From Alkaliphilus serpentinus (GTDB taxonomy: Bacteria > Bacillota > Clostridia > Peptostreptococcales > Natronincolaceae): a stretch of DNA of 53,705 nt. The position numbers and the translations under genes were made by a program. The notes under the pieces were generated by a model. It searched no databases. It saw only the letters and a list, made by a program, of their open reading frames with translations, and was not told the DNA's origin. Where the stretch lies: positions 1-53,705 of the forward strand of contig NZ_WBZB01000055.1 of NCBI RefSeq assembly GCF_009017255.1, in the 5' to 3' direction. Every line of letters begins with the position of its first letter. Position 1 is the stretch's first letter. Below are positions 33,172 through 47,555 of the stretch, in pieces.

Positions 33172-35441
33172 CTATTCAGCTTCTTTTCTATGCTCTCTAG
33201 ACACCATGTCTATTATTTGTTGTGCTTCTGCAATAGCTTCTTCCATTTCTAAATCACCATTAAGATATGCGGTGAATATTTCCCTTAATTGAGATTCCCC
33301 AGGAATTGGAAGGAAGATTTGATGTTGTTGATATAACTTATTTACACGTTCTAAATACTCTGATGGTAATTTCTTGACCTTGCTCTGTATATTCTGTAGA
33401 TCCAGGCTGCAATTTAAATAATACTCAGCGTCACGATAAAGATCCCCATTTACCTCGTTTAATTTATATACCTCTGCCAGTGTGCGTAACATTTCAACTG
33501 CTGTATCAATATTTTCACTATTTGGATTGATGACAAACCAATTTGCACGCATACGGTTCTTATCATTTTGGTCTTTGACCTGAGGCATTGGGAAATATTC
33601 TGAATATCTACTATACGGTCCCATAACGCCTTGTAATACATAACCATCATTATGTCTATATGAGTAATCATCACGAATTATATGTGACTCATACAATCTC
33701 TTTGCACTGACTAAAACGTCATAAAACGCTACATTATCTAAATCCACATGATATCGGTCGTAATCATAATGATTATAAATGTAACGGAAAACAATCTGAT
33801 CCATCACAAAATCTCTATGAATCGCAATTGATTCTTTGCCTTGATTAGACTGTCCCCATTCCTTGTCAAAATCTAATAAGTCATCGATAGTTTTTAATCG
33901 TTCGGGGGACCAGCCGATTTTTTCCATATCCGGTCTTGGGTACATAAGATTACCATATGTCTGAACTGATAAAGGGAAACCGAAGACTTCATCGTTGAAT
34001 GTACTACCTTCTACTAAGGCAGGGAACATGTGATCAAAAACCTCATTCATCTCAGGATAGGTTGAAAGGTCAACATAATATCCCTTACTTAAAAGACTCA
34101 CTGCAAACTCTGACTTGAATGGGATCACATATACATCAAAACTACTATCGCCCGATAAAAGAAGTGGTGCGACCTCTTCTAGTTCAAAAGAATCTTCGAT
34201 TTCTTGAAGAGGTAAATACGAGAATGTTACATCAGGCATATGCACTCTCATTAGTGCAGAAAAGTATTCATATGCATATTGATCAGACATCACGAGCTCT
34301 ACTTTCTCTTCTTGAGGGTTGTTCACTGGTATATTCGTTTCATTCTGAATGTCAGAACTGAGCAAACTTTTATCGTCTGATTTGCTAATCTCACTTTGTG
34401 TCATGAATCCAATTATGGTTGCTGCAACAACACATATAGCCACAATAAAGGTCTTTACTTTCCAAGGTTCAAAGTTCAATACATTTCTAATGCGTCTTTT
34501 GGTTTTCTTTTCTCCAAATGTCAGAGAATAGTTAGGCCAAACTTTATAGCCTTTATTTGCAAATCTGACAATTACTTCAGCATAATTGACTTTCTTATCT
34601 ACTCCAATTTCAGAAATAACTCTCTCATCACAAAAGCCTTCCATATCTTGTTTGAAATAGTGATAGCATAGCCATACTAAAGGGTTAAACCAATGAACCA
34701 AAGCAACCAGCAAAACTGCAGCATTTAATGTACCATCAAAAAACTTAATATGCTGTTTTTCATGAAGTAAAACATATTCCATCATCTCAGCATCAATTGC
34801 TTTTTTCTCAGGTAATACGATTTTGGGCTTAATGAAACCTATTACCATAGGTCCCTCGACATTACCTTGATAAATCGACAATTTAGAATCATTGAGATAC
34901 CTATAAAGAGTATTCTCTTTTCCTATTAGCTTTAGTTTTAGTTTTGAGTAAGTTCTTAGATATGATGATACAACAATACTCAACAGTAATATCAATCCAC
35001 TTAACCATACGACTGTCCCAATATCTATCCATTCAAATTTTATCTCATCGTTATTGATTTGATTAACAGAGTACGTAGGAATGTATTCATTATCAAGTAT
35101 CATTTCGTCATTTCTTGTATAAGTTTTTCCATCAGAGACCTCCATATCGACATTTGAATCACTACTGACATCTGTAGGGATACACTTAATCTCTTCAGAA
35201 ACGATTTTATCTTTATCATTCGTGGTTACTGTCGAAGCTTGTTCGAATTTGATTAGCTCTACTTTCAATGGCATATCTATTTCTAGAGGAAAGACAAACT
35301 TTAGAAAACAATAATCCAAAGAAAATAAAACAAACCTTTTTTCAGTTTATGATTTGTTACAAAACGAAACACCACCACAAGTGATGCCAATATACTTCCT
35401 AGCAAACTTAACTCTAATACTTTAAGAAATATATCATTCAT
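33172..35441 (-). CDS. BlaR1-type M56 metallopeptidase fused to a solute-binding-protein-like sensor (one-base frameshift)
   Basis: The main frame (33172-35319) has the M56 zinc site HEKQH and CDERV, five hydrophobic helices including KTFIVAICVVAATIIGF, then about 370 extracellular residues similar to type 1 ABC solute-binding proteins (YYVDLSTYPEM, VFGFPLSVQTYGNLMYPRPD, C-terminal AYLNGDLEMEEAIAEAQ) in place of the usual penicillin-binding domain. The true N-terminus (MNDIFLKVLELSLLG and VVVFRFVTNHKLKKGL), starting at ATG 35441, lies in another frame; adding one T to the run at 35305-35308 joins them as IVFLKFVFP. So the gene is broken, or miscalled, near residue 45. The start overlaps the blaI-like stop codon. 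Ligand binding outside should trigger the protease and inactivate the repressor. The ligand is unknown. Confidence 0.8.
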
Positions 35442-35796
35442 TGTGTTTCACCTCTTCAATCATTTTTTTAATTTCATTAATTTCTGCATTACTTATTTCT
35501 TCGCTCTGAATGAAATTCTGTACGAGTAATTTAAATGATCCTTGATATATCTTTTCTAATAGTAATTTTGTCTCTTTGATTCTTACTTCTTCAACTTCAA
35601 TCAAAGGCTTACAAACAAATCCTGGATCACTTCTTTCAATAGCCTGTTTCTTAATCAATCGATTGATCAATGTGTAAGTGGTATTCTTTTTCCAATCTTT
35701 TTCAGAAATCATATAATCCGAAATTTGATTTGCTTTCAATTCTCCTTTTTCCCATAACAAGTTCATAATTACTAATTCAGCATCTGTTAAATTCAT
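35434..35796 (-). CDS. BlaI/MecI-family repressor
   Basis: The 120-residue winged-helix protein matches BlaI/MecI: LTDAELVIMNLLWEKGELKANQI, then the recognition region KKNTTYTLINRLIKKQAIER, and a helical dimerisation tail. It represses its own operon until cleaved through the linked M56 receptor. GAGGTGATTAG precedes the ATG. Its last codons overlap the receptor start (AATGAATGA), so both are coupled. A textbook operator overlaps its promoter. Confidence 0.95.
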   Translation of the reverse strand: MNLTDAELVIMNLLWEKGELKANQISDYMISEKDWKKNTTYTLINRLIKKQAIERSDPGFVCKPLIEVEEVRIKETKLLLEKIYQGSFKLLVQNFIQSEEISNAEINEIKKMIEEVKHNE

Positions 35797-38978: not shown

Positions 38979-39180
38979 TTTCATCCTCCTCTAACCAAAA
39001 TAATTGATCAAGAGACTTATTTAGAACTTTGCATAACTTAAGCCCTAAGGCTATGGTAGGATTATATTTCTCCTTCTCCAAAAGCCCTATAGTTTGCCTC
39101 GTTACCCCTACTTTTTCAGCAAGCTCTTCTTGGGTGAGTTGTTTATCCATACGGCTTAATTTAATATTATTCCTTACAAT
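38968..39180 (-). CDS. Cro/C1-family HTH regulator (YozG-like), possible ATT start
   Basis: The protein of about 70 residues is one helix-turn-helix (LTQEELAEKVGVTRQTIGLLEKEKYNPTIAL) of the short Cro/C1 type. The first ATG at 39150 has no ribosome binding site and would remove the first helix (NNIKLSRMDKQL). The frame is open upstream to a GGAGGG at 39187-39192, and six bases after it lies ATT at 39178-39180, giving the expected N-terminus. I therefore prefer an ATT start, or a mutated ATG. It probably controls its own promoter through the 18-bp inverted repeat upstream and perhaps the linked ABC exporter. Confidence 0.75.
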   Translation of the reverse strand: MVRNNIKLSRMDKQLTQEELAEKVGVTRQTIGLLEKEKYNPTIALGLKLCKVLNKSLDQLFWLEEDENEK

Positions 39181-39203
39181 ACTAATCCCTCCAGTTTAAA
39201 AAA

Positions 39204-39257
39204 AAATGCAAAATATATATTCCATTATAATGTAATATATATTTTGCATTTTGTCAA
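39204..39257 (-). promoter_or_regulatory. Promoter with an 18-bp perfect inverted repeat
   Basis: Arms 39204-39221 and 39234-39251 (each AAATGCAAAATATATATT type) are exact inverted repeats around a 12-base centre. TTGACA (39252-39257) and TACATT (39229-39234) are 17 bases apart on the minus strand, so the repeat covers the spacer, -10 and start. It is the likely operator of the adjacent Cro/C1 regulator. Confidence 0.75.
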
Positions 39258-39588
39258 GCAATTCTTATGTATTTATTTCCTCAATTGTTTATACCTTCCT
39301 CTTAGCTACTGGTTGACCTAGCAGACCCAGTATTGGCCTGTCAGCAGAAATTTCGTGCACATACTGGACAGGGACCTCCCTATGTTTTGGGAGCGGTCTC
39401 TATCTTCTTTACAGCAAAAATGTAAAACCATACCTATTAACCATTCATTCAGACAATTCCAGATTTCCGTCTAGACTCTTATTTTATAAGAATAAACTCC
39501 TTACATCTGCAACTATTCTAAGTCTATAAGTTTTCCATTGGCTCAATTTATGCCTCCACCTCTGAAGTGGGTTGATTAAAGTTTATTT
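39258..39588. other. Gene-free region with paired segments
   Basis: No ORF with a ribosome binding site is seen. CCTGTC/GACAGG and GGGACC-TCCC/GGGA-GGTC pairings at 39330-39410 could form a structured RNA or a terminator of the MCP operon. No riboswitch class was recognised, and the position is downstream of the minus-strand MCP gene. Confidence 0.35.
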
Positions 39589-41286
39589 TTAAAGCTTAAA
39601 CTTTTGCACCATTGTACTAAGATCCTCAGCTAATCCAGATAGTGTACCTGCACTAAGAGAAAGATTTTCCATAGATTTATTTTGCTCTTCTGTGGAAGCT
39701 GCTGTCTCTTCTATGGCTGCTGAGTTTTCTTGTGATATAGAAGCAATCTGATCAATGCCAACATTGATTTCTTTACTACCATCGGCTATTTCATTTAGAT
39801 TGTTTGATACTTTTTCTATTTTTCCAATCATGTCACTGATTTCTTTGCTTATATTTTCAAAGGTTTTTCCAGAAATTTTAATTTGGTTGGTACCTTCTTC
39901 AACTTCAGTATAGGCATTTCCCAAAGATAATGTTACTGCACTTGATTGGTGTTGAACATTACTGATAATATCCGATATTTCAACGGCTGATACTCCCACC
40001 TGCTCTGCCAGCTTTCTTATCTCATCAGCTACCACTGCAAATCCCCGACCGGCTTCCCCAGCCCTTGCTGCTTCTATTGCCGCATTAAGAGCAAGGAGAT
40101 TGGTTTGGTCTGATATATTATTGATCACTTCTAGCAATTTAGAGATCTTTTGAGAGTCTTCATTTAATCTTTTAAGCTTGTCTACAGATTCATTAACCAT
40201 GCTATTGGTAGTTACCATATGGTTTACCGATTTATTCATTTCAACTAACCCGCTTTGGGCTGATGCTAAAACTAGTCTTGAGGATTCACTTAGTCTTTTT
40301 CCCTCTTGGTTTGCCCCTTCAATTAATCTATTTAAGTTATCAATTGAAGCTGCAATTTGACTGGAGGAGCTGGCTTGCTCTTCTGCACCAGCTGCCATTT
40401 CCTGCATGGTGGCGGCTACTTGTTCATTACTTTGTCGTGCCCTTAAGCTTACATCATTTAAATCTCTACTTTGGGTATTTATTTTTCTAGAGGCTTCTGT
40501 GGTATTCATTAAAATGCTTTTTAAGCTTTCTGTCATTTTATTTGTTGACTCTGCAAGAATCCCTACTTCATCTTTATTCTTCACCTTTACCTGATCCACT
40601 GTTAAATCTCCCTCAGCAATTTTTTGGAGAATATCAGAGACTAAATTAATTGGTTTAGTGATACTCCTGGTTATTGTAAGTGCTATGGTCATACCCAGCA
40701 AGATAGCTATTGCTATAGCAGCCCATATTTTAATAGTACTCTCTTTAAATAATATATCGGCATTTTTACTAGCATTATCGCTTGTTGCTATATTGTGCTC
40801 TACCAGCTGATCCAAACTTTTTTCAACTGCTCTGGTATATTGCCCTCCATCTATTAGAGCGTCTGAGGCTTCGTCTTTCTTGTTATTTTTGCTTAGTACA
40901 AAAACCCTTTGGATCATGTTTCTATATTCTTTAAAATCTTCTACAACGGTGTCATAAAGCATCTGTTCCTCTTCTCCATGGAAAGCGTAGCTCGCTAAAA
41001 GCAAATCGATTTCTTCTTTGTTCAAATTATACTCATCTTCCTTTTTTCTCATCCTGGCATCATCATTAGTAGTGATGTGTTCTAGCACTACTCCAAAATT
41101 CTTTGCCATAATATGTTGCATCTCCATTGCCGCCTCTATAGATGGAATTTCTCCTTCTGTTATGGTATCTAGCGAATCATTAAAGCTGTTCAAATCCGTT
41201 AGACCTGTTACCCCCACAGCTATGGTTAAGATCAAAAGTATAAAAAATCCAAAATATAATTTCTTGCCTATGGTTAGTTTCATCAT
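39589..41286 (-). CDS. Methyl-accepting chemotaxis protein
   Basis: The 565-residue receptor has an N-terminal membrane helix, a four-helix-bundle ligand domain of about 160 residues outside, a second helix ([19 protein letters not shown]), a HAMP domain, and a long cytoplasmic coiled coil with the conserved tip [39 protein letters not shown] segments offer methylation sites. It should signal through CheW to a CheA kinase not present in the window. It is the last gene of the P2-CheW-MCP operon. GGAGGG precedes two adjacent ATGs. Confidence 0.95.
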
Positions 41287-41313
41287 TAAATCCCTCCAGT
41301 TTAATTAATTCTC

Positions 41314-41766
41314 TTAAGCAGACTGAGTCTGTGTATTATCTTTGGACATTGATAAAATTCCTTTAAGGTCTAAAAGTATGATCATCCTTTCCTTTAAAGT
41401 TGCAATTCCTGAAACATATTGCTTCTCCATGCCTTCAACCACATGCGGTGGCGGCATTACATCTTCCTCATTAATTCTTAATACTTGAGATGCATCGTCT
41501 ACAATTAAACCCAGTTGTTTTCCTTTAAAATAAATGATGATAATGCGGCAACTTTTACCTAGCTCTTTGTTTTGTTTATTAAATTTCTTACGAAGAACAA
41601 TCAATGGGGTGATGACACCTCGTACATTGATGATACCTTCTACAAAATTAGGGGCATCTGGTAGTCTAGTGGGGTTTTGGTACTCGCCTATTTCTTTTAC
41701 ATACTCAATTCCAATTCCATATTCTTCTTCATTGATTTTGCATATCACATATTGCCTTTCTGTCAT
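41314..41766 (-). CDS. cheW: CheW coupling protein
   Basis: The 150-residue protein has the CheW SH3-like fold: YVICKINEEEYGIGIEYVKEI, NPTRLPDAPNFVEGIINVRGVITPLI and GLIVDDASQVLRI. It links receptors to CheA. Its start lies inside the preceding P2-like gene (38-base overlap), with GGAAGGAGG within that gene. The MCP gene follows after 27 bases. Confidence 0.95.
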   Translation of the reverse strand: MTERQYVICKINEEEYGIGIEYVKEIGEYQNPTRLPDAPNFVEGIINVRGVITPLIVLRKKFNKQNKELGKSCRIIIIYFKGKQLGLIVDDASQVLRINEEDVMPPPHVVEGMEKQYVSGIATLKERMIILLDLKGILSMSKDNTQTQSA

Positions 41767-42073
41767 TGGTACTTCCTCCTTCCTTCATAGCTTTATTTTT
41801 AATTAAAAGCTTAAGCTTTCTTTCCTTATTCATTGACTCTGAAAAAAAAGCCTGTATTTCTTCAATATTGAATTCTGTGGTAATTTCTAATTTAAATCCT
41901 TCCTGTCTAATCACTTCTGCACTTTGACTGTATTCCAAAATGTCCTTAGGAAAAATCTCAATTACATCAGCAATCTTTTTTAGATGATGGATAACTTCAA
42001 AGGCTTTTATGTTTTCCATCCCTATACATTCTTCTAAGTAGACTGTTACGGTATATGTCCTTTGTTTGTCCAT
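41729..42073 (-). CDS. Stand-alone CheA P2-like (CheY-binding) domain protein
   Basis: The 114-residue protein resembles the P2 domain of CheA, a ferredoxin-like fold that docks CheY: YTVTVYLEECIGMENIKAFEV, HHLKKIADVIEIFPKDI, and KLEITTEFNIEEIQAFFSES, in the strand-helix-strand order. None of the P1, P3, P4 or P5 parts follow. The last 25 residues are charged and overlap cheW. The start at 42073 follows GGGAGTGATAATAA. It might recruit response regulators to the MCP/CheW array; this is inferred. Similarity to P2 was judged by eye. Confidence 0.65.
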   Translation of the reverse strand: MDKQRTYTVTVYLEECIGMENIKAFEVIHHLKKIADVIEIFPKDILEYSQSAEVIRQEGFKLEITTEFNIEEIQAFFSESMNKERKLKLLIKNKAMKEGGSTNDRKAICDMQNQ

Positions 42074-42247
42074 TTATTATCACTCCCATAATTGTACAAT
42101 TCTTTGTCTCTATAAGGATTTTAATACCACACTATTATGAATAAAATATACTGCATTTTAGTAGTCTTTTGTTGTATTTTGTCGTAAAATGCAAAAAAAA
42201 AATCTGAATGGTTGTTTTAAAACTATGAATAGAATTTAAGCGATCAT

Positions 42248-43441
42248 TTATCTATAAGTATCAAATTTAATCTCTTTTATTAATTGGTCACAGCTCTCCA
42301 TAGTAATATTAAAAAGCTTTAATACCTTTTCATCTATTTCTTTTTGATGGCATTTGCAAATAATACTCCAAGAGTAAATATCTGCAATATGTACCAGGGA
42401 AACCAATTCTTTATTTATTACCAGTTCATCAAATGGATTGTGATGAAACAAGGCAGATTCTACTATGGGATGGGGAAGCTCCCACCAGTTTAATAAAAAT
42501 CCGCCTATCTCCTGGTGAGAAGGCTCTAAAAATTCCATTTCCTCAAAATAATAAAATGCATCTTGATTATTCTTAATACCTGATGTTACTTTCAAATACT
42601 CATCAGTAAAGTTATTGAGTAAAATGACCTTTCCGATATCATGAAGCAAACCTGCCACTGCACAAGTATCGGGTATTTTTTTATGTAGCAGTCGACTGTA
42701 GAGAAAAGATAAAATTTTATTGGTTATGGCCGAATGCGTCCAAATCATCTTAATATCTCTATGAAACTGCATATTTTTTATACCCTCTAAGGCTTTAAAA
42801 GTGCTGGTGCTTAAAATGATGTTTTGTACATTTGTAAGTCCCAAGTAAATAATTGCCTGCTTGATGGAGCCTGTTTGTATTCCATAAAAGGAAGAGTTTA
42901 CTATCTCAAGTATTTTTGCAGCTATTGAAGGATCCCTTTCTATTACCTCTGCAATTACCTTCATATCAGCATCCTGCTTAATTAAGCTATTCACCTTATC
43001 ATATATTTTTTCTGGTGTAGGTAGACAATCTATTTTATTGATGAGCTCAAGAAGCTTTTTATTTTTTAGTAAATCTTCTACTTTGAAAATTTGCTCTATG
43101 GTATTTACCAGCTCTTGATTTTTCCAAGGCTTAAGAAGATAAAGCTTTGCCAAGCTACTTCGTTTTATTTTTAATAGGGTACCTTCATCCATGTGTCCAC
43201 TTAGCACAAGCCTTATGGTGGAAGGAAAACGGTCTTTTGCTTTTTCTAGGAGTTGATACCCGCTTATTCCCGACATAATTACATCAGTTACCAACAAGTC
43301 TATCTTTTCACTGTTTAATATAATTAAGGCTTCTTCTCCACCATTTGCAGTAAAAATATTGTATTTGCTATTATTAAATACTCTCCTTAATGACTTCAAT
43401 ATCTGCTCTTCATCATCTACAAATAGTATATTTTTGTTCAC
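42248..43441 (-). CDS. Response regulator with HDOD output domain
   Basis: The 397-residue protein has an N-terminal receiver (FVDDEEQILKSLRRVF, phosphoacceptor Asp53, Lys in LLKPWKNQE) and an HDOD domain (residues about 135-330; INSSFYG-like, TCAVAGLLHDIGKVIL). HDOD proteins affect c-di-GMP signalling, motility or regulation without clear enzymatic activity. The start is a GTG at 43441 with AGGTGAT upstream. It follows the kinase gene by 34 bases and is probably its partner. Confidence 0.92.
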   Translation of the reverse strand: MNKNILFVDDEEQILKSLRRVFNNSKYNIFTANGGEEALIILNSEKIDLLVTDVIMSGISGYQLLEKAKDRFPSTIRLVLSGHMDEGTLLKIKRSSLAKLYLLKPWKNQELVNTIEQIFKVEDLLKNKKLLELINKIDCLPTPEKIYDKVNSLIKQDADMKVIAEVIERDPSIAAKILEIVNSSFYGIQTGSIKQAIIYLGLTNVQNIILSTSTFKALEGIKNMQFHRDIKMIWTHSAITNKILSFLYSRLLHKKIPDTCAVAGLLHDIGKVILLNNFTDEYLKVTSGIKNNQDAFYYFEEMEFLEPSHQEIGGFLLNWWELPHPIVESALFHHNPFDELVINKELVSLVHIADIYSWSIICKCHQKEIDEKVLKLFNITMESCDQLIKEIKFDTYR

Positions 43442-43475
43442 TATTTATCACCTAACACTCTCAGACTCCAAGTTA

Positions 43476-44846
43476 TTATTTTTTTACTAACTTACGCTTC
43501 ATGGGTTCAATCGGTAGCTTAATGGTAAATTTTGTGCCCACACCAGGGGTACTATCAACTATGATCTCACCGCCATTCTTGTTGACAATAATATCATATG
43601 CAATACTAAGCCCTAGTCCAGTCCCCTGTCCTGTGGGTTTAGTTGTAAAAAAAGGATCAAAAATTCTATTTTTGTATACATCTTCTATGCCTATCCCATT
43701 ATCTTCTATTTGGCAGATAATATATTCCTTTGACCATCTACTGCTGACAGTTATCAAACCTAAAGCATCAGATTTTTTTTCTTTTATTGCGTATAAGGCA
43801 TTTAGAGTCACGTTAAGCAATACCTGGTTAATTTGGTTTCCTAATACTTGGATTACTGGAATATCACTCAAAACTTCTACAACCCGGGCATGATGTTTGA
43901 TTTCATTTCTAGCCACCAGCAATACATTTTTTATTCCTTCATTTAAGCTATATGCTTCTAGTCGGGTATTTTGATCAACCCTTGAAAAAGTTTTTAGACT
44001 CATTACAATTTCGCTAATTCTTTCTAATCCGTCCTCAATATCCTCAAATAGCTCTTCAAGATCCCTACCAATAAAGTCCAGATCTATTTTTTCCTCCAAG
44101 TTTTTAATTTGATCAATTTCTGTTTTTAATTTTTCTCTTGGGGCATGATGAAAGCTACTTATACAGCTTCTATAGGCATCAAGGACTTTCTTATAGCTAT
44201 CAAAATAATTTCTTGAGGTTTCAAAGTTACTGTATATATACCCTAAAGGATTATTAACTTCATGGGCCACCCCCGCAGCCAGCTGTCCAATTGCCGCCAG
44301 CTTCTCTTGCTGTAGAAGCTGCTGTTGGGTATGTTTTAATTCGTCCATCGCCTTCGTTAATTCCTTGTTATTTTCCATCAGCTTTTTTTCAATTTTTTTA
44401 CACTCTGTAATGTCCCTTGCAACAGATAATACAAGGTTTTGTCCCTCTAATATAAAAATGCTTGCATTGACTTCAACGGGTATTGGCATTCCAGATTTGG
44501 CAAAGAAAATCATTTCAAAGAATACAGGCTCTTCTTGAAGCAATTGATTTTTTACTTTTTCTGCACTGCTGTTATCCATATGACTTCCTAATTTTTCAGG
44601 AGGAAGTGCAAGAAATTCTTCCCGTGTATAGCCAAGCTTACTACAAGTAGTATCGTTTACTTCAATGACTGAACCAGGAAGACCTTCATCCCCCATGATA
44701 GAGAAAAAGATAAAATCATTTGTGTTTTGAAATAGCTTAGAAAATGTCTTCAATTGGTTTTTATCCAGTAGTTTTTCTAAATTTAATGGCCATTTTAGGT
44801 GAGACTTTGACGTTTTCATCTCCTCATTAGATCTATGGCTTTGCAT
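43476..44846 (-). CDS. PAS-domain histidine kinase
   Basis: The 456-residue kinase has a PAS domain (residues about 35-150), a coiled linker rich in Gln and Leu, HisKA with the phosphorylated His in GVAHEVNNPLGY near residue 197, and HATPase with DNGIGIEDVYK, FTTKPTGQGTGLGLSIAYDI. No membrane helices, so it is a cytoplasmic sensor. It lies between two response regulators (LytTR 22 bases upstream, HDOD 34 bases downstream). GGGGTGAG precedes the ATG. Confidence 0.94.
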   Translation of the reverse strand: MQSHRSNEEMKTSKSHLKWPLNLEKLLDKNQLKTFSKLFQNTNDFIFFSIMGDEGLPGSVIEVNDTTCSKLGYTREEFLALPPEKLGSHMDNSSAEKVKNQLLQEEPVFFEMIFFAKSGMPIPVEVNASIFILEGQNLVLSVARDITECKKIEKKLMENNKELTKAMDELKHTQQQLLQQEKLAAIGQLAAGVAHEVNNPLGYIYSNFETSRNYFDSYKKVLDAYRSCISSFHHAPREKLKTEIDQIKNLEEKIDLDFIGRDLEELFEDIEDGLERISEIVMSLKTFSRVDQNTRLEAYSLNEGIKNVLLVARNEIKHHARVVEVLSDIPVIQVLGNQINQVLLNVTLNALYAIKEKKSDALGLITVSSRWSKEYIICQIEDNGIGIEDVYKNRIFDPFFTTKPTGQGTGLGLSIAYDIIVNKNGGEIIVDSTPGVGTKFTIKLPIEPMKRKLVKK

Positions 44847-44868
44847 ACATACTCACCCCTATTCACAA

Positions 44869-45717
44869 TCAAAACCTTAGTAATTTTTTTAACCTCTTCA
44901 TAGCACCTCTGCTGACTGGTATACTTTCTTTTCCTTCCTTTAACTTAAGGTTATAAGCAGAGTTAAACCATGGCACTATTTTTTCTACCCTCTCGATATT
45001 TACAATATAACCTCTGTGGCATCGAAAGAAATGATCTTTATCCAAATTATTTTCCCATGAGTTTAATGAATCAGTACTTTTGTATTTTCCCATTTCTGTT
45101 ATAACAAAAACATCTCCCTCCATTGCCATCAAATAAATGATCTCCGAAGGATCAATCAGTATAATGTTTTCATCGTCTCGAACCGGATATTTTCTAATAG
45201 CTTTGGCTTTTGATGCCTCTTTTTTAGCAGACATGGGGGACTCCAGGATTTGTTCAAAGGATTTTAATCGGTTAGACACCTCAACGATATGATCTCTGCT
45301 GTCATTTATAATTTCATATAGTGAAGCTTTTTTTTCCTGTTCTCGTTTGCTTGCTAGGGCTTTTTCAACTACCTCAATGACCTCTTGATTTTTCCATGGT
45401 TTAGAAAAGTAGTAATAAATACTGCCTTCATTTATTGCAGAAATGGCAATGTTAGTGTCTGTATAGCCGGTTATTAAAATTCTAATGGTATCAGGAGTAT
45501 TTTTCTTGGCAATTTTAAATACATCAATTCCTGACATATTAGGCATATTATGATCACAAATAATAATGTCTATTATATGATGGGCCATTATATCCAATGC
45601 CTTCTCCGGTGTTGTTGTGCTTAACACTTCATATTTATTTCTATCAAATATACGCCTTTGGGCATTTATTACTTTCAGTTCATCATCTACAATTAGAATC
45701 GTTGCATCCTTTTCCAT
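44869..45717 (-). CDS. LytTR-family response regulator
   Basis: The 282-residue protein has a receiver domain (ILIVDDELKVINAQRRIF, Asp55, SKPWKNQE) and a C-terminal LytTR DNA-binding domain (IILIDPSEIIYLMAMEGDV, FFRCHRGYIVNIERVEKI). It should regulate transcription when phosphorylated by the adjacent PAS kinase. The receiver strongly resembles that of the HDOD regulator (both contain KPWKNQE), suggesting common origin or shared partner. AAGGGG precedes the ATG. Confidence 0.94.
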   Translation of the reverse strand: MEKDATILIVDDELKVINAQRRIFDRNKYEVLSTTTPEKALDIMAHHIIDIIICDHNMPNMSGIDVFKIAKKNTPDTIRILITGYTDTNIAISAINEGSIYYYFSKPWKNQEVIEVVEKALASKREQEKKASLYEIINDSRDHIVEVSNRLKSFEQILESPMSAKKEASKAKAIRKYPVRDDENIILIDPSEIIYLMAMEGDVFVITEMGKYKSTDSLNSWENNLDKDHFFRCHRGYIVNIERVEKIVPWFNSAYNLKLKEGKESIPVSRGAMKRLKKLLRF

Positions 45718-45879
45718 CTCTAACCCCTTAATAGTATCTCGTACTCAAAATCTCTGCAGCAATCTCCATTTAGTAAGTGCAGCTAGTAAAATATTAATAG
45801 CATCCAAAATACTAACTAACTCATATTCTTATCAATTAAAATTTCCAAAGTCTGATCCCACTTTAACTAGTCTTATATA

Positions 45880-47555
45880 TTATTTATTTAACTTTGTCAA
45901 TTCATCCACAAAGGCTGGTCTTTTTCTATATAAGCAAATTAGCTCATTAATTACATCTTCCTGATTTTTCTTTCCGGCTATCTTTTTAAATCTCTTAAGT
46001 ATTCCGCATACACCTTGATAGGCCCTTCTATTAGATGAAGAATTTGCTGCTGCTTTAATGTATTTTTTATAAATCTCAATAACCTCGTCCTTAAACTTAT
46101 TCTCTAGCATCCCAGCATATTCTTCTATGATTCTTGGGTTTTCCCTTACAAACTCCATTAACTCATCTAAATCATTTTCTTCTACTATGAGTTTAAGATA
46201 CATATTCCTACCATGCCAACCCTTATCCTTTTTCAGCTCTTGCTTTATGTTATTATAAAATACTAACTTATGCCCGGTTACTAATTCTTTCAATTCCCTA
46301 TAATATTCAAAATTTCCATCAAATAAAAGCTCTTTTCCTAATTTCTCCTGCTCTTCTTTTTGGCAAAGTTCCTTATAGGCTTCATATCTTATTTTTTTCC
46401 ATTTTGATACTAATCCTGCAGATTGTTTATCTTTCTTTTCCCCCGCAAGAGCTAATTCTATAACTTTATGGTAGTTCTTATCTTTCATGTATTTATCTAT
46501 AAGTAGTTCTCTAAAAGATGTAAAGTTGAGATTAGCTTTTATAAATTCTTCAGCTTCTTCTTGAGTTCCATACTCTGCTATCAACTCAAATAATATTTTG
46601 AGCATTCTTTCATTGCTGTATCTTTTATACTCATCACCGAGGTTTGTATTCACCGAATATTCTATTTTCATTCTTAGCTTATTCCTTAACTCTTCTACAT
46701 CAGCAAATTCTGCACATAGTCTGAGGATATCAATTCTATAATCTTCCCATCCATCAAAAACCTTGTTATCGCTTTGTAGCACCAGCTTATTAAATATCTT
46801 TTCTCTTAAATCAATATATAGATCAGCACTATCAGTTACAATTTCTCCTATCAGTTCTATGGTTTCTGTTACTAAAAAGCCTATATTTCCATTAGAATCA
46901 TCTGCATATTGAAAAGCTTCAACCGCCTCCTGCAGCAGTAAAAATGCGATATCTAAAGCTAATAGTATATCATCGGTGTCTCTTACTTTATCTAATAAAT
47001 CTTCCATCTCACTGACAAAAGCAGAGTTTTGTCTGTATGTAATAAAGCCTTCTCTACCTGTATATTTCCTCACGATAGAATCTATAAGCTTTTTACATTT
47101 TTCAAGTTCCTGCCCATCATCAGCATTTGAATATTTAACAATGAGGCTATTCTTTAAAGTTATATCCTTTTTAGCTATGTCTATTATTATTCTGATCAGT
47201 TCTTCTTTAGAAAGATTGTTTAAAACTTCTTTTATCTCTGGCTGCTTTACTACATCTTTTTTCCCACTTGTTCCGCTATCCTTACTATTCAAGATCACAA
47301 ATAGCTCAAAATAAGCTGCCACTTGATGCTTGCATATAGGGCCAAAATCATAAGGACAATCACACTCAGAATACAATATTTCTCCATTGTCATCTATATT
47401 TACTACAACCTCGTAATCTTCACTTCCTTGAACTTGAAAAACATATTCATTATCTCCCTGATTATATGTTTCAACGATATTTCCTTCAATGTAATAGTCA
47501 TATCCTCTTCTAAAATTGTCTTGTTTATTTGGGACTCAAAATTATTTATATTCAT
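45880..47555 (-). CDS. SWIM zinc-finger protein (one-base frameshift near the start)
   Basis: The 3' frame (45880-47376, 498 residues) begins only at CDCPYDFGPICKHQVAAYF, the CxCx(n)CxH SWIM zinc finger, with a TTG as its only start. The preceding frame from ATG 47555 (GTGAGGTG ribosome binding site) reads MNINNFESQINKTILE and is joined by adding one A near 47508, giving GYDYYIEGNIVETYNQGDN then the SWIM motif. The restored protein has about 558 residues with a long helical repeat-rich region typical of SWIM proteins in Firmicutes. SWIM domains bind DNA or proteins; the role is unknown. Confidence 0.78.

Follow-up and report, generated by a model that had tools for sequence, protein, structure and literature searches.

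The contig NZ_WBZB01000055.1 of Alkaliphilus serpentinus (53,705 nucleotides, analysed over its whole length and hereafter called the window) encodes a protein of 114 amino acids that consists of a single P2 domain, the response-regulator-binding domain of the chemotaxis kinase CheA. The gene lies between a two-component signalling set and a pair of chemoreceptor genes. Our results place this free P2 in a conserved four-gene two-component set and not with the adjacent chemoreceptor genes, which hints at a new kind of signalling helper. In five other genomes, a response regulator with a LytTR DNA-binding domain, a sensor histidine kinase (HK), a response regulator with an HDOD domain and a P2-only protein are encoded in the same order and on the same strand. 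Judging from these sequences, we lean slightly towards the view that the 114-residue protein is the fourth member of this module, in which a P2 domain freed from CheA would dock or buffer one or both of the receiver domains.

A recurrent four-gene module

Besides the window, the module is present in families f182 and f95, namely in four genomes of a distant genus, g510 (G940, G964, G1011 and G1190), and in one genome of a different family and genus (G1154). In 5/5 of these other trios of LytTR regulator, kinase and HDOD regulator, the P2-only gene comes directly after the HDOD gene. Identity to the window's proteins is 48–54% for the LytTR regulator, 51–60% for the kinase (over ~290 residues), 53–56% for the HDOD regulator and 33–45% for the P2-only protein. 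A preliminary description of this DNA had placed the P2 gene directly downstream of a PAS kinase and its LytTR and HDOD regulators, and had tied the domain to them. The order was right, the P2 gene starting 174 bases after the stop of the HDOD gene, and the tie is borne out by its recurrence in all five other trios.

The window's HDOD regulator, used as a query against 73 genomes of G940's order (at most 25 candidates scored per genome), found eight genomes at E ≤ 1e-60, five of which have the full trio. At the matches in G1174, G1164 and G1176, both a LytTR-domain neighbour and a P2-only gene are missing. In the order of A. serpentinus itself, 39 of 383 genomes matched, and the 56 matches listed besides the window are all at most 48% identical; with four candidates scored per genome, a trio could have been missed there. 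These 56 matches, together with those of G1174, G1164 and G1176, lie on 57 stretches (L210–L266; two hold two matches each), on which we found no P2-only gene (profile, E ≤ 0.1) and no LytTR-domain neighbour (blastp, the LytTR domain of the window as query, E ≤ 1e-5), within flanks of ~4–6 kb, some ended by contig ends, from which a very divergent LytTR or P2 could escape. Three of the stretches (L222, L224 and L227) encode a CheA-length protein with P2 within ~4 kb, which suggests that HDOD-regulator/kinase sets and P2-bearing CheAs do meet. In L224, genes for an HDOD regulator, a receiver-kinase, a lone receiver, CheA, CheW and CheR stand in a row on one strand.

The kinases of the module differ in their input part. 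The window's kinase has a PAS domain, while no PAS was matched in the kinases of L085 (g510) and L209 (a module locus outside g510), which begin with a different N-terminal part. The core of the kinase is conserved in spite of this difference, as are the two regulators and P2, from which we infer that P2 goes with the kinase core and the regulators and not with one particular signal.

The genes for CheW and the methyl-accepting chemotaxis protein (MCP) do not share this recurrence: among the six loci with the module, cheW and mcp follow P2 in the window alone. There was no match to either gene in stretches of 20 kb around the modules of G940, G964 and G1011, and they occur in 0/5 of the stretches seen at the other modules, where G1154 is seen only 1.3 kb downstream of P2, to the contig end, with an ABC-transporter match in the next gene. 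The name of chemosensory operon given to the locus in the preliminary description is therefore mostly wrong, and the tie of P2 to MCP and CheW is not supported. Its proviso that the gene order might be confined to this strain applies, among the six loci, to the order P2-cheW-mcp, whereas the order of regulator, kinase, regulator and P2 is found in five other genomes. The same description proposed an MCP/CheW array on which P2 would dock both regulators, coupling a cytoplasmic kinase to chemoreceptors. The adjacency and overlap of the genes in the window would agree with such an array. However, we consider it very unlikely, given the stretches without cheW and mcp at the other modules, the P2 that the genome's own CheA already has, and the fact that a free P2 lacks those parts of CheA that are known for attachment to receptor arrays.

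Identity of the free P2 domain

The window's protein matches the CheA P2 family (PF07194) with 38.9 bits against a cut-off of 23 (E 9e-10, residues 6–78 of 114), in agreement with the stand-alone CheA-P2-like domain of the preliminary description. It consists of P2 alone, without the Hpt, dimerisation, HATPase and CheW domains that a CheA combines in one protein. Five of the six P2-only proteins exceed the Pfam cut-off, the others scoring 27.9, 30.8, 26.0 and 26.8 (the last in G1011); the exception is G1154 with 19.8 bits. A single-sequence AlphaFold2 model of the window's protein (predicted local distance difference test, pLDDT, 44.3) was too poor for a fold search. Its order of strands (E) and helices (H), E-H-H-E-H-E, would be compatible with the alpha/beta fold of P2. 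Solved P2 structures in the PDB were not matched by sequence with a single or a profile query, all matches having E > 0.3.

One clade of P2-only proteins, under purifying selection within g510

In a tree of P2 domains (57 rows, 94 columns), the six P2-only proteins stand on one side of a branch with a support of 92/90. The poorly aligned L024 and L025 were left out, as were L066–L068, which are the same genes as L085–L087. With a midpoint root, next to the CheA of the A. serpentinus genome itself, the P2-only clade lies among the P2s of CheA-length proteins. The HDOD partners of the six P2-only genes likewise form one clade, in a tree of 34 rows that took in 28 of the 59 non-module HDOD matches (Shimodaira–Hasegawa-like approximate likelihood-ratio test, SH-aLRT, 100). 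Branching is alike in both trees, with the window first, then G1154 and then g510, and the inner split has a support of 94/79 in the P2 tree and of 90 in the HDOD tree. A single origin seems most likely, in which the P2 domain of a full-length CheA would have been freed and kept as a separate gene.

Within g510, the ratio of non-synonymous to synonymous substitution rates (dN/dS) of the P2-only gene is 0.11–0.28 in five of six pairs; the sixth gives 0.95, with a dN of 0.018 and a dS of 0.019. The other three module genes have ratios of 0.08–0.21. These values indicate that the P2-only gene is under purifying selection within this one genus, and its frame is open in all six module genomes. Between genera, the P2 of the window is 43% identical to that of L085, against 48–62% for the other three proteins, and 29% identical to that of L209, against 47–52%. 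In these comparisons, P2 appears to be kept, though it is the fastest-changing of the four.

A shrinking, functionless remnant of a lost CheA might also drift faster than its neighbours, and the P2-only protein does resemble the P2 of a CheA type that was not found in the A. serpentinus genome. Yet a relic is hard to reconcile with one clade at the same place in three families, with the low dN/dS in five of the six g510 pairs and with open frames in six genomes, and we regard it as very unlikely. Another point against it is the window's CheW, which is 55% identical to a CheW of the same genome on contig C31 but only 31–38% to the CheWs of the che clusters of relatives. Because of this nearer kinship, simple decay of a cheA-cheW-mcp operon does not account for P2-cheW-mcp. 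We had considered such a shrunken operon, since the gene order matches that of relatives' che clusters, and rejected it; a remnant of a second CheA operon is also countered by the recurrence of P2-only genes without cheW and mcp.

Free P2 domains in other genomes

Searches for further free P2 domains, in which the genome counts include that of A. serpentinus, returned mostly long frames. For instance, the window's P2 gave 18 other matches in 60 genomes, all in frames of 513–729 codons, and 62 other matches in 391 genomes of the class, in frames of at least 370 codons. The Pfam P2 family matched 171 of 393 genomes of the order of A. serpentinus, with frames of at least 428 codons among the matches listed (above ~51 bits, below which a weaker free P2 could be hidden). 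Among all 45 matches in 18 chosen genomes of this order, no P2 was in a frame shorter than 507 codons.

Short frames appeared when the window's P2 was compared with 398 genomes of the phylum, where three of the 43 other matches were in frames of 91, 91 and 138 codons. They belong to G940, G964 and G1011, all of g510, with 43–46% identity, and are the three best scores after the window's own. The Pfam family gave 99 matches among the 73 genomes of the order of G940, four of them in frames shorter than 380 codons (91–138); all four are in the g510 module genomes. The free P2 of G1154 is missing from these 99 matches, so that further divergent free P2s may be missed.

Two contig scans of named genomes found no P2-only gene, and the P2 query matched no relative there. 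The 80 loci kept by HDOD alignment in named genomes (mostly receiver-only matches) held no P2 by profile at E ≤ 0.01, and the plasmids and viral contigs searched gave no match. A P2 frame of 249 codons in G004 was rejected as a P2-only gene: it resembles the first portion of a CheA gene that is interrupted by an opposite-strand open reading frame (ORF). At this locus (L034:7331-11077), a second CheA is seemingly split into two frames with the opposite-strand ORF between them.

Chemotaxis proteins of the same genome

The window is contig C51 of a 3.29-Mb draft genome (G000; 83 contigs, 99.75% complete). Two P2 matches were found in this genome, the window's gene and a CheA frame of 680 codons on contig C5 (90.3 bits), which is also the sole match to the CheA dimerisation domain (PF02895). 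The preliminary description had envisaged a CheA without P2 elsewhere in the genome. No such CheA that could use the free domain was found in the draft; the only CheA found carries its own P2. The P2 of this CheA has the longest branch of the P2 tree and stands far from the P2-only proteins; the genome keeps the P2-only gene although the CheA found there has this distant P2.

The genome has four CheW matches, one of them inside the CheA frame on C5, and 15 MCP matches. Two other MCPs of the genome align ungapped with the last 309 residues of the window's MCP, one over 308 and one over 301 residues, which would fit a shared array with the one CheA. The MCP and CheW genes of the window would be a local addition, probably feeding this CheA. 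Another lone CheW of the genome (L028:8674-9129), 55% identical to that of the window, lies near a DegS-type kinase gene, on a contig without an MCP match. One MCP match (G000:C60:38828-39184) has an in-frame TAG and is likely a pseudogene or a sequencing error.

In the window, CheW and MCP are encoded together (39589–41766), as in a chemosensory operon, and 38 bases (41729–41766) are common to the frames of P2 and cheW, as the preliminary description had it. The other proteins of a full operon, CheA, CheR and CheB, were not among the seven window proteins scanned with Pfam, from 39589 to 47376. The CheA dimerisation domain had no match in the window; Hpt (P1) was not searched for.

Could the free P2 serve chemotaxis by titration? 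It would then draw CheY (or CheB) from CheA; firing of the kinase would let the module slow or reset motility, and the module would be a sensor that addresses the flagellum via a decoy docking domain. The P2-only clade lies among CheA P2s, one or more P2-bearing frames of CheA length are present in each of the module genomes, and the window's P2 is joined to cheW and mcp. Moreover, Morrison and Parkinson reportedly found that free P2 fragments hinder chemotaxis in Escherichia coli. The recurring neighbours, however, are a kinase and two regulators and not che genes, and with the P2 of the resident CheA on the longest branch of the tree, the P2-only protein is no mimic of it. We consider titration, with CheY as the second candidate partner, the main rival to a role within the module, but rather unlikely.

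The non-coding block between HDOD and P2

Part of the gap between the HDOD and P2 genes is conserved with g510: 36 of 41 bases are identical to L085, against 51–66% in the four coding genes. The alignment score of the gap was reached in 0/1000 plain shuffles of the gap of L085 or L087. For L209, 106/1000 shuffles reached the score, and hence the block is common to the window and g510 only. Within the block is a T run, and in g510 the sequence forms a strong terminator-like hairpin followed by these T's, with a predicted fold of −21.5 kcal/mol or lower. In the window, two stem bases differ, which breaks the hairpin and leaves a weak predicted fold of −1.4 kcal/mol. L209 has a hairpin of its own between HDOD and P2.

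A possible docking subunit of a two-component system

The established function of P2 is the binding of CheY-like receivers, and in CheA its benefit comes from tethering beside P1. The two regulators of the module are the first candidate partners of the free P2, because they are present in all six loci. The P2-only protein would most likely act in trans. It would bind the receiver of one or both regulators, HDOD and LytTR, in the manner of the contact between P2 and CheY in CheA. Since it is untethered, it would act by binding: it could hold a regulator, favour one of the two, or hide a dimer face. Such binding would set the amount of each regulator that is free for phosphate from the module kinase, for dimerisation or for cross-talk. 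We infer receiver binding, the choice of receiver and the effect on phosphotransfer from the gene set and from what P2 does in CheA. More specifically, we tentatively suggest, with doubt and belief nearly in balance, that a CheA docking domain was recruited as a trans-acting docking subunit of a HisKA two-component system with two outputs. Docking and phosphotransfer, which are joined in CheA, would here fall to two separate proteins, and a single docking protein may divide phosphate among the LytTR and HDOD regulators.

Several observations weigh against this docking role. The module is present in three lineages only, one of which has four close members, and the P2-only protein is the fastest-drifting of its four proteins (29–43% against 47–62% identity). 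The support for the P2-only clade is not starred, its tree has few columns and L209 is a long row. The fold model of the window's P2 is poor, and no solved P2 was matched by sequence. In g510, the terminator-like hairpin splits HDOD from P2, and because of it P2 may be expressed separately. The P2-bearing CheA-length frames in all six genomes could point to a partner in chemotaxis instead. Receiver binding by the free protein would, moreover, carry over a known activity of P2 by analogy.

Docking by P2 is known from within CheA. If a free P2 is conserved next to a kinase that is not a CheA, docking would be a separate, movable function. It would also offer a natural test of the roles of P2 besides tethering, such as buffering, choosing regulators and blocking cross-talk, and a testable link between chemotaxis proteins and ordinary two-component systems.

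Features of the window

The positions and the minus strand of the six genes agree with the preliminary description (Table 1). In 39000–46200, 32 promoters and 4 terminators were predicted, against 29.0 and 4.3 in shuffled sequences, and no Rfam family matched in the window. Upstream of the gene for the LytTR regulator lies a DUF6880-like gene, by a match below the Pfam cut-off. At L085 in g510, the gene at this place (L085:13878-14912) has a GGDEF diguanylate cyclase domain, which makes a link to cyclic di-GMP possible. Further away in the window, at 33172–35796 (−), a penicillinase-repressor (BlaI-like) gene is followed by a gene for a BlaR1-type M56 peptidase of 715 amino acids, the final ~430 residues of which have no Pfam match.

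Table 1. Features of the module locus and the adjoining chemoreceptor genes in the window.
Feature	Position	Strand	Evidence
Response regulator, receiver + LytTR DNA-binding domain, 282 aa	44869..45717	-	Pfam; orthologue 5' of HK in 5/5 other module loci
Sensor histidine kinase, PAS + HisKA + HATPase_c, 456 aa	43476..44846	-	Pfam; 51–60% identity over ~290 residues to five other module kinases
HDOD response regulator, receiver + HDOD, 397 aa	42248..43441	-	Pfam; one clade with five module orthologues, SH-aLRT 100
Non-coding block conserved with g510, in the gap between the HDOD and P2 genes	42178..42218	-	36/41 bases identical to L085
Stand-alone P2 (response-regulator-binding) domain protein, 114 aa	41729..42073	-	PF07194; forms a clade with the P2-only proteins of the five other loci, support 92/90
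CheW, 150 aa	41314..41766	-	PF01584, 120.9 bits; among module loci, only in the window
Methyl-accepting chemotaxis protein, 4HB_MCP_1 + HAMP + MCPsignal, 565 aa	39589..41286	-	Pfam; among module loci, only in the window

Comparison with known systems

In E. coli, the P2 domain of CheA binds CheY with a dissociation constant of 0.5 μM (passages of PMC5705603). A survey of CheA architectures describes loss and duplication of P2 and Hpt as a separate gene; its passages describe no separate P2 gene, and the words 'standalone' and 'stand-alone' are absent from its main text (PMC10782961). A doubled P2 inside CheA2 is described in passages of a paper on CheA1 and CheA2 of Borrelia (PMC10703414). No free P2 protein was named in the open-licence literature searched, by titles and abstract starts, which is weak evidence of absence.

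The bipartite CheAs, with a separate Hpt gene or as CheA3/CheA4 of Cereibacter sphaeroides, are similar to our case in that a CheA domain has a gene of its own (passages of PMC10782961). In contrast, the separate piece there completes a CheA of the same operon, whereas the CheA of A. serpentinus has its own P2 and lies on a different contig.

The second che clusters of relatives (G001, G005, G008, G015 and G044) resemble the window in two respects: the P2s of their CheAs are among the nearer kin of the P2-only proteins, and the order CheA-CheW-MCP in L030, L031, L032 and L035 resembles P2-cheW-mcp. They differ in that the window has no CheA, CheR or CheB, and the window's CheW and MCP are only 35–38% and 27–31% identical to theirs. 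Of these clusters, L029 is the one in which CheR and CheB were confirmed with Pfam. Among che clusters with such CheAs, parts of L029 and L224 were scanned, and L224 has CheR. In the P2 tree, the rows nearest to the P2-only proteins include L037, L038 and L039.

Two-component auxiliary or 'third component' proteins are small, are encoded with a kinase-regulator set and are thought to tune it. The P2-only protein is like this class in being a small protein encoded with such a set, and we know of no two-component auxiliary protein that is a CheA P2 domain. With the P2 domain of CheA it shares the sequence family (PF07194), but it differs in standing alone, in frames 91–149 codons long without any further CheA domain, and in having genes for a HisKA-type kinase and for two output regulators as its neighbours.

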